From Synoicihabitans lomoniglobus (GTDB lineage: Bacteria > Verrucomicrobiota > Verrucomicrobiia > Opitutales > Opitutaceae): a DNA stretch of 64,000 nt. Location: positions 2,413,501 to 2,477,500 of the forward strand of contig NZ_CP119075.1 of the NCBI RefSeq assembly GCF_029023725.1. Direction: 5' to 3'. The translations under genes were made by a program, and so were the position numbers. This document shows, piece after piece, positions 9,797-14,840 of this stretch. A model generated the notes under the pieces. It was not told where the DNA came from. It was given only the letters and a program-made list of their open reading frames with translations, and ran no database searches. Numbering within the stretch: position 1 is the stretch's first letter; every line of letters begins with the position of its first letter.

Positions 9797-11071
9797 TTAG
9801 AAGCGGGTGATGATGCCGACGCGCACGATGAGATTGTCGCCGAGCATGATCGAGGCCGTGCGGCCACCGACGGTTTGGAAGTAGTCGTCGATCGCCTCAA
9901 ACACCCCACCGACGAACAACGCGGTGCGCGGAGTGATCCAATACTCTGCCGCAATCTCGGCGTAATAGCCCAAGATCATCTCACTGTGCTCACCGGTTTG
10001 AGTGATGGTGATGGGATTGCCCACCTCGTAGGCGCTCATGTCGAGCGTCTCGGTCACGGTGTAATCGGTGCCTACAAACGCGCCCATGAGACCCGCCGAA
10101 GCAACGATGCCGATCTTCTCCGTGAGATGGGTGCGAATCTCCGCGCCCATGCGGATGGAGTAATAGGCTCCTTTGAGTTCCCAGTCACCGTCGACGAACG
10201 CGCCGCCCGCGGTAGTGGTAAAGGTGCGGTTGGGAGTGACTTGCTGCAGGGGAACCGTGGTTTCCAGTCCATCGGCCAGAATGATGTTACCGATGTCATC
10301 GAACAGATTGCCAAACGACGGAGCCTCGTAACGCGCGTCGGGCGCATCACCGTAGAGCTCATACAAGTCGGTCATCGTGATCAGATCCGACATTACCCGG
10401 CCGGCGGTCGCGGCTTTGACGTCGGTCATACCGATCGAAGCCGTAAGGTTGATTTCCGTCTTGGGGCTCAGCTTGAGGAAGCGACGGGAGACGGCCATTT
10501 CCATGCCGAGGTTGGATCCGTCGTGATCAGCCGCCGCGGTCGCTCCGGTGGATTGCGCGGAAAACGCATGCATGGCGATGCCGCCATCCACTTGTTGCGA
10601 GTCGTGGGTGTAAAACCACTGCCGGGTTTGACCGGGCGTATAGGAAAGCAGGCTCTCCCCTTTTTCCGTGGTGTAGCGGCCACCCGGTGTGGAAGTCTGA
10701 TTGCCGTCAGCGTCCTTCTCGCTGCTACGCAGACCATCGAGGGCCACGCCGCCATCGTCGTATCGACGCACGACCACTTCGGTCCGGTCGGCACCGGGCA
10801 GATTTTGAATCGAAGGCACTTCGCCCAACCCACCGAACTGCACCGATGATTTGCCGCTGTTGTAGCGGGCGTTTACGTGGAACGTCCACGGGTTGGCATC
10901 GCGAAAGGCCACTTTGCGCATCCGCGGCGGCAGCACGAACCCGGGAGGCGCTTCCGCCGTCTGTTCTTCCGGAACTTCGACTTCGGTCGTGGCCTGCGCA
11001 TAAGTTGGGCAGGCAGAAATAGCGATCGTGAGACCGAGCGTAAGCAGACGGGCGAGTTTGGAGTTCGTCAT
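9797..11071 (-). CDS. Putative outer-membrane beta-barrel protein
   Basis: 424 aa with a signal peptide (MTNSKLARLLTLGLTIAIS, cleavage likely near TYAQA). Long alternating beta stretches follow (VNARYNSGKSSVQFGG, YTVTETLDMSAYEVG, MILGYYAEIAAEYWI), and the chain ends in VGIITRF, the terminal Phe being the usual outer-membrane assembly signal. No specific family was recognised. The start at 11071 puts the signal peptide at the N-terminus; the in-frame codon 57 bases upstream adds a charged stretch. Convergent with ispH, with a 7-bp gap. Confidence 0.75.
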   Translation of the reverse strand: MTNSKLARLLTLGLTIAISACPTYAQATTEVEVPEEQTAEAPPGFVLPPRMRKVAFRDANPWTFHVNARYNSGKSSVQFGGLGEVPSIQNLPGADRTEVVVRRYDDGGVALDGLRSSEKDADGNQTSTPGGRYTTEKGESLLSYTPGQTRQWFYTHDSQQVDGGIAMHAFSAQSTGATAAADHDGSNLGMEMAVSRRFLKLSPKTEINLTASIGMTDVKAATAGRVMSDLITMTDLYELYGDAPDARYEAPSFGNLFDDIGNIILADGLETTVPLQQVTPNRTFTTTAGGAFVDGDWELKGAYYSIRMGAEIRTHLTEKIGIVASAGLMGAFVGTDYTVTETLDMSAYEVGNPITITQTGEHSEMILGYYAEIAAEYWITPRTALFVGGVFEAIDDYFQTVGGRTASIMLGDNLIVRVGIITRF

Positions 11072-11197
11072 GGAGTATAGGCGATTCAGACGCGTATTAT
11101 CCGGTAAGGTTGCTCGGAAAACGGTCATGGCCAGCCCTTTCTTGGGGTTTCATCCCGGATAAGGGGCGAATCGTCCCTTCGACCAGGCCTCGAAGGG

Positions 11198-11905
11198 CTA
11201 CTGTGTGAACTCGTCAAACTCGGCCGCCTTGGCCTTTTCAGCGGCCAAAGCCGCGGCCGCGGCGGGGTCGATCGCGGCTTCCCGCTCCTTGAGCCGACGT
11301 TCGGCGGCCCGCAGGTCTTCTTCGCGCTGTTCGAGCTCGGTTTCGGTGAGCTGCTGCTCCTGCACCTTATCGAAAAGGCTGGATTCACTTTCCTCCAGAA
11401 AGGCTTCCCGTTCCTTGATCGATGCCCGTTGCTCCTTGAGGGATGCCTCCTGTCGCTCCAGCTCGGCTTTCAGTTTTTCGAGTGCCTCTTTCTCCTCGGC
11501 GGAGAGCGAAGACCGGGCCGGAGCCGCTTTGCGGGCGGCGGCGAGCACATTTTCCCGCGCCTGCAACAGCGCCTCCATCTCGGCAAATTCACGCTGCTGT
11601 TCGAGCAATTTGACCTCCAGCTCTTCGCACGCGCGTTCCCGGTCCTCCAATCGGGCCTCCAACTCGCGCAGCGCTTTTTCGAGCTCGTTCGACTTTTCCG
11701 GAGACATCCGGGTTTCGGATTCTCCCCAGGGGGCCCGGGTGACCGCCACGATTTCGTTGATTTTTTCACGGGCTTCGGCGGCATTTGCCGATTGCTCGAT
11801 CGGCGACCGCACCCGGCGGCGCAAGGACAGGTTTGGTCCGCCGGCCCCGGGCGGGGCACCGGGAAAACGAAGTTTGTTGCCGGGAGGCGGGGGCAAATCA
11901 GGCAT
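11198..11905 (-). CDS. Coiled-coil protein of the ParA cassette
   Basis: 235 aa. The first about 35 residues are Pro/Gly-rich (MPDLPPPPGNKLRFPGAPP), followed by a short basic patch (LRRRVR). From about residue 70 to 210 there is an almost unbroken Glu/Arg/Leu/Ala heptad pattern (LEKALRELEARLEDRERA, LEKLKAELERQEAS), typical of a long coiled coil; the tail ends AAEFDEFTQ. No enzyme motif. It starts 6 bp after the 293-aa gene and is third in the ParA operon, so a structural or tethering role with ParA is inferred, not shown. Confidence 0.8.
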   Translation of the reverse strand: MPDLPPPPGNKLRFPGAPPGAGGPNLSLRRRVRSPIEQSANAAEAREKINEIVAVTRAPWGESETRMSPEKSNELEKALRELEARLEDRERACEELEVKLLEQQREFAEMEALLQARENVLAAARKAAPARSSLSAEEKEALEKLKAELERQEASLKEQRASIKEREAFLEESESSLFDKVQEQQLTETELEQREEDLRAAERRLKEREAAIDPAAAAALAAEKAKAAEFDEFTQ

Positions 11906-11911
11906 GACCGA

Positions 11912-12793
11912 TCATCGACCGAAAAGGCGGCCGAACCAACCCGATTTTTTCTCGGGCACAGCTCCGGCCACATGCGGCTCCAGCAACTTGACGACCAAGG
12001 GCTCGATGGCGGGATCCTGCAGCACCATCACTTCGCGGCTCAAGGCGGTGCCCGCCGCGATGCGGGCCTCGATCTGAGCGAGGTCGGCTTTGAAGTAGGC
12101 CAGGAGCGCCTCCACCCGCGATTCCACCTTGGGGGGCACGGCAGCCCCGCGAGCGGACAAGCCCTGGCGCTGAAGCGCCGACAGGCCCGCGACGGTGGCG
12201 CCCAGCGCTTCGATGAGATGTAGCCCTTTTTGCCCCGGACGAAACGGCAGGAACTTGGCAATGGTCGCTTCGTCCACGTGCGACAGGGCGTTGAGCAGGC
12301 TGCGGAAATCGCCACCCACGATGACACTCTGGGACATGCTTTGCGCAAAAACGGCGAACGCGCCGATGGTCTCCAGGTTTTCCAAGCCGCAAAACTCCAG
12401 CGTGTCGGCGGACAGACTGCTGAACCGGATGGGAAAATCTTCAGGAATCTCCAACTTCTTGAGATTATCTAGAATCGGATTGGACGCCGCGGACGCGGAT
12501 TCGCTGTGCTCGACCATGTCGCCGAACGGGTCGTCAAAGGCCAAGGTTTCCTGCAGAATCGTGATCAGCGTGGTGATGCTGTTCGCCGGATAACCACGCG
12601 ACGCGAGCAATTCGACCGTGTCGTCGTATTCGAGATCGATGTAATCCGCCGGGCAGTCGACTTTGTTCGCGCCGGGCCATTCCGGGCCATCGAGGTTTTC
12701 CGCCAGACTGGAGAGCGCCGTGTCGACCATGATGGACGACGCAAACGCGGTGCGGACTGCATTCCATTGTTGAGCGGAGGATGGATCAGGCAT
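11912..12793 (-). CDS. Unrecognised 293-aa protein between parA-like and coiled-coil genes
   Basis: I do not recognise the family. It is soluble, largely helical by composition and without a signal peptide. The middle region around ADTLEFCGLENLETIGAF and GDFRSLLNALSHVDEATIAK is the most ordered-looking part. The C-terminus, after a Pro-rich spacer, is KKSGWFGRLFGR, a short basic-aromatic tail of the kind that often attaches proteins to the inner membrane. The start at 12793 (MPDPSSAQQ) is 20 bp after the parA-like stop; the open frame extends upstream but only as a shadow of parA. Membrane anchor or cargo adaptor for ParA is a guess from context. Confidence 0.8.
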   Translation of the reverse strand: MPDPSSAQQWNAVRTAFASSIMVDTALSSLAENLDGPEWPGANKVDCPADYIDLEYDDTVELLASRGYPANSITTLITILQETLAFDDPFGDMVEHSESASAASNPILDNLKKLEIPEDFPIRFSSLSADTLEFCGLENLETIGAFAVFAQSMSQSVIVGGDFRSLLNALSHVDEATIAKFLPFRPGQKGLHLIEALGATVAGLSALQRQGLSARGAAVPPKVESRVEALLAYFKADLAQIEARIAAGTALSREVMVLQDPAIEPLVVKLLEPHVAGAVPEKKSGWFGRLFGR

Positions 12794-12813
12794 GGGGAGC
12801 GTAAGAGAAGGGT

Positions 12814-13716
12814 TTAGTCGGTGATGCCGTCGCCGTGACGAATGAGTTCCATGGCGACCTTGCGGTAGTCGTCGACGACGGTCGATTCCCCGCTGCTGTC
12901 GGCGGACGCATTGACCAGGTTGACCGGCAGTCCCAGCGTGACCGCCCGTCGGACCACCATCGCATCGCGCACGTGTTGTTCGAACAATTTGGCCGACGGT
13001 GCTACGCGCTTGGCGCTGCGATATTGGTTCATGCGCAACTGCATCCGCATCCGCGGCACGTCGATGTCGACGCCGGTTTTGATCGAGTTGAAGATAATGC
13101 CCTGCACGCGCGCTGGCACTCCCTGGGAGGATTTGCGAAAGCTGGCGCTCAGTTGGTGAAACTTGCCCAACTTCTCCACCAGCAGCGTGAAGCCGATGAG
13201 GCTCAAGGCGTCCGGGTTGGACGGCACGTAAATTTCGTTGGCACTGAAAATCCCGCACTGCGACGCCCGCAAAATATTCGGCGGACAATCGAACAGGATG
13301 AAATCGTAGTTGCTCTCGATGGCCTCGAGTTGGTCGCGAAAAATCACATACGGCGGTCGGGCCGGATCGCCGCGAAACTCGTTTTCCAAATCCACCAGAT
13401 TGAAGGTCGTCGGCAGAATATCCAACCCCGGCAGCACGACCTCTCCCGTCTTGCTGCGCACCACGTCTTTGACCACCAGATCCGACACCTTGGCTTCGCC
13501 GGGATCGAAGATCGAATACACCGCGCCCTGGCTCGATGTGTTGATTTTGTTCCACCGGTCCAACCGCAACAGCCAGATGGAAGCGTTGGACTGGGTGTCG
13601 AAATCGCAGATGAGGACGCGTTTGCCCAGTTTGGCCAAACAAGCCGCGATGTTCACGAGCAGTGACGTTTTGCCGACGCCGCCCTTGTAGTTGATGAAAG
13701 CAATTTTTCGAGCCAT
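12814..13716 (-). CDS. ParA/MinD-type P-loop ATPase
   Basis: 300 aa. The deviant Walker A motif KGGVGKTSLL sits at residues 10-19, Walker A' is in ICDFDTQSNAS and Walker B is FILFDCPPN, all diagnostic of ParA-type ATPases that dimerise on DNA or membrane to position cargo. No N-terminal DNA-binding extension is present, as in orphan ParA proteins. There is no parB-like gene or cluster of parS-like sites nearby, so chromosome segregation is not supported here. The start (MARKIAFINYKGG) is the second Met; the first, four codons upstream, is possible. It leads a three-gene minus-strand operon. Confidence 0.9.
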   Translation of the reverse strand: MARKIAFINYKGGVGKTSLLVNIAACLAKLGKRVLICDFDTQSNASIWLLRLDRWNKINTSSQGAVYSIFDPGEAKVSDLVVKDVVRSKTGEVVLPGLDILPTTFNLVDLENEFRGDPARPPYVIFRDQLEAIESNYDFILFDCPPNILRASQCGIFSANEIYVPSNPDALSLIGFTLLVEKLGKFHQLSASFRKSSQGVPARVQGIIFNSIKTGVDIDVPRMRMQLRMNQYRSAKRVAPSAKLFEQHVRDAMVVRRAVTLGLPVNLVNASADSSGESTVVDDYRKVAMELIRHGDGITD

Positions 13717-13929: not shown

Positions 13930-14325
13930 ATGCCCCCCTACATACTAAGCGTCGACGACGAACCGGATGTGACCGACATCATCGCCTTCAACCTGCGGAA
14001 ACGGGGTTACGAGGTGCAAACCGCCGCCGATGGTCACAGCGCACTCGATCGCATCGCGGAACGACGACCGGATCTCCTGTTGTTGGATCTCATGCTGCCC
14101 GACCTCGACGGGTTTGCCATCTGCGAGATTCTGCGCCGCCGCGCGGATACCGCCACGTTGCCCATCATCATTCTTTCCGCGTGGAGCGAACCCGATTCGC
14201 GCCACCTCGGCCTCGAGCTCGGGGCGATCGACTTCATCAACAAACCCTTCAGCCCCCGGGCGCTGGTCGAACGCGTCGACAATCTGCTGGCTTCACGCCA
14301 CCCCGCCACCGATATCCGCTCTTGA
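13930..14325 (+). CDS. Stand-alone response-regulator receiver domain
   Basis: 131 aa, a single CheY-like receiver with no output domain. Acidic pocket D9/D10 (SVDDEPD), phospho-acceptor D53 (LLLLDLMLPDLDG), S83 (ILSAWS) and K105 (FINKPF) are all present, so it should be phosphorylatable. It is probably an intermediate in a phosphorelay or a protein-protein switch. No kinase is adjacent; its divergent neighbour is the ParA cassette and the next gene downstream is the GreA/B-like factor. Confidence 0.92.
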   Translation: MPPYILSVDDEPDVTDIIAFNLRKRGYEVQTAADGHSALDRIAERRPDLLLLDLMLPDLDGFAICEILRRRADTATLPIIILSAWSEPDSRHLGLELGAIDFINKPFSPRALVERVDNLLASRHPATDIRS

Positions 14326-14340
14326 ACAGCGACCGGGGAC

Positions 14341-14357
14341 GACGGCATAAGGCCGTC
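14341..14357 (+). promoter_or_regulatory. Small hairpin touching the start of the GreA/B-like gene
   Basis: GACGGC and GCCGTC form a 6-bp stem around the loop ATAAG, immediately before the ATG at 14358. The purine-rich AAGG, the only candidate ribosome-binding site, is partly within it. It could limit translation initiation, but such short hairpins also occur by chance. Confidence 0.3.
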
Positions 14358-14840
14358 ATGCCCGACAAAACTCGCCTGATCACCGCTTTGATTGAAAAGC
14401 TCGAGGCCGACCGTGATCTGCAAACCCGGGCCGCCCTGCTCGCGCGCGACGAAGCGACCAACGAAGAAAGCCGCGCGGAAAACAAATATGACACCCGCGG
14501 CCAGGAAGCGGCCTATCTCGCCGAGGGTCAGGCCAAGCTCGCGGCGGAGCTGGCTGACGCCATCCGCCTGTATCGCTCGCTCGAACTACCCGCCACCCCT
14601 CCGCCCGCGGCCCTCAAGATCGGGAGTGTATTCACCATTGAACGACTAGGCGGGCCTCTACACGGCTTGATCGGCCCCCGCGCCGGCGGCACAGATTTCA
14701 CGGTCGACGACACCACCTACACGGTGATCACGCCCAGTTCCCCACTGGGCCGGGCCGTGTTGGGTCGTAAGGCTGGCGACACCGTGTATCTGGTCCAACG
14801 GGGCAAACCGCAGCCGCATCGCATCACGGCCACGGCCTGA
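14358..14840 (+). CDS. GreA/GreB-like transcription factor domain protein
   Basis: 160 aa. The N-terminal half is a helical hairpin with the pattern EATNEESRAENKYDTRGQEA, and the C-terminal half carries YTVITPSSPLGRAVLGRKAGDTV, the FKBP-like fold shared with GreA/GreB. This subgroup is related to elongation factors that enter the RNA polymerase secondary channel, but the N-terminal hairpin tip differs from canonical GreA, so transcript-cleavage activity is not certain. The start at 14358 avoids an upstream extension that overlaps the receiver gene. Confidence 0.75.
   Translation: MPDKTRLITALIEKLEADRDLQTRAALLARDEATNEESRAENKYDTRGQEAAYLAEGQAKLAAELADAIRLYRSLELPATPPPAALKIGSVFTIERLGGPLHGLIGPRAGGTDFTVDDTTYTVITPSSPLGRAVLGRKAGDTVYLVQRGKPQPHRITATA

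Follow-up and report, generated by a model that had tools for sequence, protein, structure and literature searches.

Which object a ParA-family ATPase positions when no ParB gene stands beside it, and through which partners it does so, is the question raised by a three-gene locus of Synoicihabitans lomoniglobus. The locus is located within a 64,000-nt stretch of the genome (contig NZ_CP119075.1, positions 2,413,501 to 2,477,500), which is the whole of the DNA analyzed and is termed the window throughout. A first-pass annotation had read here three genes on the minus strand, encoding a ParA ATPase without a ParB partner, a protein of no recognized family (hereafter the middle protein) and a coiled-coil protein (the coil), the intergenic gaps being 20 and 6 bp. 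This layout was confirmed by the open reading frames, 20 bp separating the ParA and middle genes and 6 bp the middle and coil genes. ParA matches the Pfam family AAA_31 at 2e-36, no ParB family was found among its neighbors when Pfam and NCBIfam were searched, and the sole ParB-family match of the genome is located at G000:C1:2144700, about 0.28 Mb from the ParA gene. The features of the locus, in window positions, are the following:

12814..13716, minus strand: ParA-family ATPase, 300 aa, with the deviant Walker A motif KGGVGKTS and no C-terminal membrane tail
11912..12793, minus strand: middle protein, 293 aa, of a new family predicted to be all-alpha; putative membrane-tethered adaptor, ending in KKSGWFGRLFGR
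11915..11950, minus strand: codons of the C-terminal tail KKSGWFGRLFGR (middle-protein residues 282-293), a MinD-like putative membrane-targeting sequence
11198..11905, minus strand: coiled-coil protein, 235 aa, a putative PomX-like ATPase-activating scaffold
11771..11905, minus strand: N-terminal stretch of the coil (residues ~1-45), basic and proline-rich, with an L-x-L-R-R core
11261..11710, minus strand: heptad coiled-coil region (coil residues 66-215)

The trio is real and conserved; it belongs with the ParA/MinD positioning systems but has its own partners. On balance, we consider it probable that it forms a chromosomal positioning system in which a nucleoid-riding ParA works with a PomX-like activator and a membrane-tethered adaptor on an envelope-associated cargo. 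ParA/MinD ATPases place many large bacterial objects, and the trio points to two likely, conserved partners for one of them. The partners of these ATPases are extremely diverse according to PMC10241942, in which ATPases whose partner is not known are termed "orphan."

Conservation of the three-gene order

The first-pass annotation had made its reading depend on the three genes being conserved together in other genomes, and they are. In a first draw of 57 genomes, 25 carry the middle protein, the own genome included. All 24 relatives have a ParA gene directly upstream, and 23 of them have a coil gene downstream, one of these 23 coils being matched weakly (E 0.006); in L049 no coil is matched. 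A species-level scan, with one genome for each species, yielded 157 relatives. The best 80 were taken as a public set, which partly overlaps the first-draw genomes and is labeled Opitutaceae, Opitutae and other Verrucomicrobia, with one Akkermansia muciniphila. These 80 loci were selected by their middle protein and searched by tblastn; a ParA gene lies before it in 79 and a coil gene after it in 77, and the three-gene order is the same in most of them. In the one locus lacking ParA (L113), the middle gene is cut by the end of the contig, and L091 lacks the coil because of a contig end. All three frames could be extracted from 63 public loci, where the gaps have medians of 24 and 6 nt.

When the whole phylum was sampled, the middle protein was found in 29 of 288 genomes, every one within the Opitutales; a draw restricted to that order gave 33 of 95. 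We then considered a further set of 34 loci (L159-L192), mostly from families other than the Opitutaceae. Of these, 33 have the middle protein, 32 have ParA and 31 have the two together; a profile detected the coil in 22. The coil of L165 is short and escaped the profile, L163 is cut by a contig end, and L192 contains a remote relative of the middle protein without ParA. Because of these counts, we regard ParA plus the middle protein, usually accompanied by the coil, as the conserved unit. The ATPase is its best conserved member, with a mean column identity of 69%, vs. 49 and 47% for its partners.

The middle protein was found by tblastn in none of 72,556 plasmid records and in none of 50,697 phage records. 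A defence or phage origin was rejected, as those records are empty and PADLOC matches only the ATPase core or coiled coils. No description of the trio was found among the open-access papers listed in literature searches.

As for the sequence sets, the coil alignment (A2) omits L027, whose frame is broken after 85 aa, and L049; the ParA alignment (A3) omits L035 (broken frame) and L037 (contig end) and keeps L032, in which ParA starts in a shifted frame. Alignment A4 comprises 79 middle proteins from the 80 loci (L091 being cut by the contig end) plus that of the window, and alignment A5 comprises 61 of 68 extracted ParAs plus that of the window (62 sequences). Terminus statistics refer to 80 middle proteins, 75 coils and 69 ParAs, the window's own included.

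Sequence features and predicted folds of the three proteins

Beyond its AAA_31 match, ParA is matched by PHROG 164 (ParA-like partition protein) at 5.6e-39, and no NCBIfam cut-off is reached among the best 25 of its 28 matches. The 62 aligned ParAs have a mean column identity of 82%, and K11-S18, D38, D40 and D143-P146 are invariant in them, corresponding to the deviant Walker A, the second Asp motif and Walker B. The ParA model has a predicted template modeling score (pTM) of 0.89 and gives 344 matches in the PDB at E ≤ 0.001; by E-value, the nearest solved folds are Soj/ParA, followed by McdA at rank 12, FlhG at rank 14 and MinD at rank 23. Thirteen positions in the C-terminal part are Lys or Arg in at least 97% of the 62 sequences, and the C-terminus of the window's ParA is acidic to neutral, with no membrane tail. 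Nucleoid-riding members bear basic C-terminal residues, as stated in PMC10241942. The conserved Lys/Arg positions and the absent tail agree with the nucleoid-riding type, and the ATPase may thus bind DNA.

Six further AAA_31 matches exist elsewhere in the genome. The best AAA_31 match of the genome (G000:C1:2202297), perhaps the chromosomal ParA, is located about 57 kb from the ParB match. Another carrier of the middle protein, genome G128, has as its best ParB-family match one that is below the cut-off (E 5.7e-4).

The middle protein had been annotated as belonging to no known family, and searches of Pfam and NCBIfam (E up to 1) and of PADLOC and PHROGs (E up to 0.01) returned none. It likewise matches no unrelated enzyme family, the second point on which the first-pass annotation had made itself dependent; the fold search of the PDB was also blank. 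The AlphaFold2 model, obtained from 80 sequences, is essentially all helical, with a mean predicted local distance difference test score (pLDDT) of 90.6 and a pTM of 0.67; the N-terminus is predicted to be helical as well (pLDDT near 90). With this model, neither the PDB nor the viral library gave a Foldseek match at E ≤ 0.001, and the best VIA-align score (Z 4.7) was to a designed protein. From the misses in these two libraries alone, it does not follow that the modeled fold is new.

Three resemblances of the middle protein came up. Homology to T2SSF/PilC was set aside as weak, partial and below the Pfam cut-off: matches occur in 8/80 middle proteins (best 5.5e-4), and the five found among 10 scanned proteins score 13.5-18.5 bits, where the cut-off is 25.2, and align with a part of the model. 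In the same scan, baeRF_family10 matches 2/80 (best 3.9e-4). Armadillo-repeat matches of the A4 profile (E 4.5e-4) were rejected, as they are sums over designed repeats of which no single one is significant in either of two alignments.

The tail of the middle protein, which the first-pass annotation had taken for a probable membrane binder, was analyzed by means of a composition rule applied to the last 15 residues, which requires one or more Phe/Trp, a minimum of three Lys/Arg and no more than one acidic residue. The rule is passed by 79 of the 80 middle proteins, vs. 2.4% of internal windows, and by 1/69 ParA ends and 0/75 coil ends. The tail sits behind a variable linker and is the most constant end in the middle-protein family; KKTGWLGRLFGR, KKGGLFGKLFGR and KKTGFLGKLFGR are among the endings observed. 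The window's own tail, KKSGWFGRLFGR, is similar to the peptide that targets E. coli MinD to the membrane, KGFLKRLFGG (PMC5471200). From its sequence, the tail is probably a membrane-targeting sequence, in keeping with the earlier suggestion. In the further set, 26 of 33 middle proteins pass the rule. The seven that fail it are the tail-less paralogues of L175, L179, L181 and L185, together with L174, in which two acidic residues precede a tail that is present, L191, with its middle gene in two separate frames, and the remote relative L192.

L049 (genome G038) is the most divergent relative, with 42% identity in ParA and 24% in the middle protein, and the membrane tail is absent. The product of the gene directly after it appears to have a transmembrane helix at its N-terminus, and this might stand in for the tail.

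The third protein had been read as a heptad coiled coil. Its LIVMF periodicity peaks at 3.52, and the power near 3.5 is reached by 0/500 shuffles, which upholds that reading; when Ala is added to the set, the same power is reached by 136/500 shuffles. Family searches gave only generic coiled-coil matches below the cut-off. The first 40 residues of 75 coils have a median net charge of +4 and a median of seven prolines, and the motif [LIVM]x[LIVM]x0-2[RK][RK] is found in 67 of these 75 N-termini, which are of the Opitutaceae type. Partners of ParA/MinD ATPases act via basic N-termini, which in PomX are combined with a coiled coil (PMC7993993, PMC10241942). Because a basic, proline-rich N-terminus joined to a coiled coil is the architecture of PomX, the coil may, by analogy, be the ATPase-activating partner, and the middle protein would then be the adaptor on the membrane side.

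A putative positioning mechanism and its alternatives

In the mechanism that we favor, an ATP-bound ParA dimer would ride on the nucleoid in the manner of ParA, Soj and McdA. The coil would self-assemble into a scaffold, and its basic, probably disordered N-terminus would stimulate the ParA ATPase as PomX does with PomZ. The middle protein, with its predicted new all-helical domain, would bind either ParA or the scaffold, and its basic-aromatic C-terminal tail would keep it at the inner membrane. Hydrolysis of ATP at the complex would generate a ParA gradient, by which a membrane-associated assembly would be moved or centred relative to the nucleoid. The cargo would most likely be an envelope machine, with the type IV pilus apparatus as the leading candidate and the divisome as the next. 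Should the membrane tail work as proposed, a nucleoid-riding ATPase and a membrane-tethered partner would act together in an order in which no MinC was detected. It is conceivable, and we put it forward tentatively, that the trio goes further and represents a new ParA class: the ATPase would read the nucleoid, an adaptor with a MinD-type tail would read the membrane, and the pair would place the pilus or the divisome with no detectable MinC. The adaptor fold would then be new and the system modular, its tail-less paralogues being linked to a private 240-aa protein and to a Ser/Thr kinase.

Four known systems help to situate the trio. Like PomX/PomY/PomZ of Myxococcus xanthus, it consists of three proteins, one of them a partner in which a basic, proline-rich N-terminus precedes a coiled coil (a likeness in architecture), and its ATPase is better conserved than its partners, as PMC7993993 states for Pom. 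It differs in its all-helical middle protein with a MinD-like tail, a tail not mentioned in the portions of the Pom descriptions available. With MinCDE the trio shares the resemblance of its tail to the C-terminal membrane-targeting peptide of E. coli MinD, but it carries this tail on a partner rather than on the ATPase, and MinC is matched in 0/95 Opitutales genomes. Like McdA/McdB, it combines a ParA-type ATPase, with McdA among its nearer folds, and a separate partner; unlike there, the own genome has no microcompartment genes and the partner matches no family. ParABS shares the ParA fold and motifs, with Soj as the nearest solved fold, whereas the trio's operon has no ParB partner.

Candidate cargoes were counted in the 95 Opitutales genomes, comparing the 33 that carry the middle protein with the 62 that do not. 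PilT exceeds its cut-off in 33/33 vs. 40/62, and at least two strong PilT are present among the matches listed in 28/33 vs. 9/62; the association has p 1.6e-11 overall and 5.7e-05 for genomes of at least 2.5 Mb. In genome G333, a PilT pair and the middle gene are about 6 kb apart, and in G388 the distance is 11 kb; elsewhere PilT is far off or on other contigs. Bacterial microcompartment (BMC) genes occur in 28/33 vs. 15/62, methyl-accepting chemotaxis proteins (MCPs) over the cut-off in 16/33 vs. 11/62, with 17/33 carriers having none, and FliF over the cut-off in 10/33 vs. 17/62 (p 0.81). The own genome has a single MCP and matches neither FliF nor BMC (PF00936). The flagellum and the BMC therefore cannot be its cargo, and since there is one MCP, a chemoreceptor array is unlikely to be.

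Several observations weigh against the favored mechanism. As regards cargo, PilT correlates best, but phylogeny and genome size confound this result, and BMC genes correlate as well, in spite of their absence from the own genome; for both reasons, we treat the type IV pilus as a lead only. As regards the tail, its helix has low confidence in the AlphaFold model (pLDDT ~58-65), and the middle proteins of L159, L162 and L171 satisfy the composition rule without an RLFG-type motif. The mean hydrophobic moment is modestly higher in tails (0.44) than in internal windows (0.30), 18% of which reach the value of the tails, and ParA ends score 0.49; the case for the tail therefore rests on composition and conservation. 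As regards the coil, the N-terminal motif is found in 4/17 coils outside the Opitutaceae, whose N-termini are basic in another arrangement (e.g., RRKLSLP or KKRVLSLRP). In addition, the profile detected no coil in family f11 (L175, L179, L181 and L185), nor was one found in L190, ParA and the middle protein being kept, and in the public loci L058 and L062 the coil is unmatched even at E 10. Because these loci lack it, activation of ParA cannot depend on the coil everywhere. Finally, L180 (9910-10863) encodes a tailed middle protein with no ParA within 19.5 kb; its genome holds a ParA-middle pair elsewhere (L181), and the L180 protein may share a distant ParA.

What had been proposed earlier stands in part. 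A positioning system with the middle protein as adaptor or anchor agrees with the conserved ParA-type unit and the MinD-like tail; the coil, which had been left without a role, may be the activator. The word "self-contained" has to be qualified, as some lineages are without a coil and L180 has no ParA close by.

The loci without a coil bear most directly on a two-protein system, in which the middle protein alone would activate ParA and act as adaptor, the coil being an accessory scaffold or part of the cargo. We regard this as a doubtful yet serious alternative. ParA and the middle protein occur with no detectable coil in L174, L178 and L190, as well as in the four tail-less loci of f11, and ParA accompanies nearly all public middle proteins; but the coil is nearly as constant in those same public loci and has an activator-like basic N-terminus, and the middle proteins, as judged by eye, have no such N-terminus, theirs being the one modeled as helical.

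Placement of the division site is rather unlikely. Here the trio would substitute for a missing Min system and place FtsZ, like PomXYZ in Myxococcus, which has the same plan of a ParA plus a basic N-terminus with a coiled coil. The search for MinC_C that was blank in all 95 Opitutales genomes was positive in 6/14 control genomes, which favors this possibility; however, 62 of the 95 genomes lack both the middle protein and a MinC match, so that the trio is not a general solution for the division site, and no division gene is present among the few flank genes identified.

Very unlikely, in turn, is the placement of a cargo already known for ParA proteins, i.e., a flagellum, a chemoreceptor array or a BMC. 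BMC and chemoreceptor genes are more frequent among carriers, but about half of the carriers have no MCP, FliF shows no association, and the own genome has at most one MCP to offer. On the presence/absence counts, all three were rejected as general cargo; the role is thus refuted in general and conceivable in single lineages. A second partition system for a chromosome or another element, with its partner on DNA rather than on the membrane, is highly improbable despite the PHROG 164 match, as the operon has no ParB-like partner, ParB is located elsewhere in the genome, plasmid and phage records are empty, and the tail does not suggest DNA binding, even if basic charge alone would allow it.

Neighboring genes and modular variants

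Downstream of the trio, one more gene is found on the same strand:

9797..11128, minus strand: 443-aa outer-membrane-like protein, signal peptide likely (sequence read by eye)

This gene begins 69 bp after the trio, its product matches no Pfam family, and it is possibly a fourth member of the operon in the Opitutaceae. In the public set, tblastn located a Gre-like gene in 56/80 loci, ispH in 45/80, the outer-membrane-like gene in 45/80 and a TonB-like gene in 28/80, the names Gre, ispH and TonB being given from sequences read by eye. Neighbor clusters were built by a greedy choice of genes from 44 of 59 loci; those of ispH, the outer-membrane-like gene and the TonB-like gene contain no loci from L159-L185, which belong to other families. 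In the window, a Gre-factor-like protein (14181-14840, plus strand) and a response regulator (13930-14325, plus strand), both recognized by reading the sequences, diverge from ParA.

A 240-aa protein without a Pfam family is present in 12/95 Opitutales genomes, all 12 of which also carry the middle protein, and no copy lies farther than about 2.2 kb from a middle gene; the window's genome has no match to it. In family f11, a Ser/Thr kinase, the 240-aa protein, a membrane-protein-like gene and the tail-less middle paralogue form a same-strand row. Both in f11 and in L182, tail-less or divergent middle paralogues and ParA come after the Ser/Thr kinase and the 240-aa protein, whose genes lie upstream of the middle gene at distances of about 1.9 to 4.3 kb.

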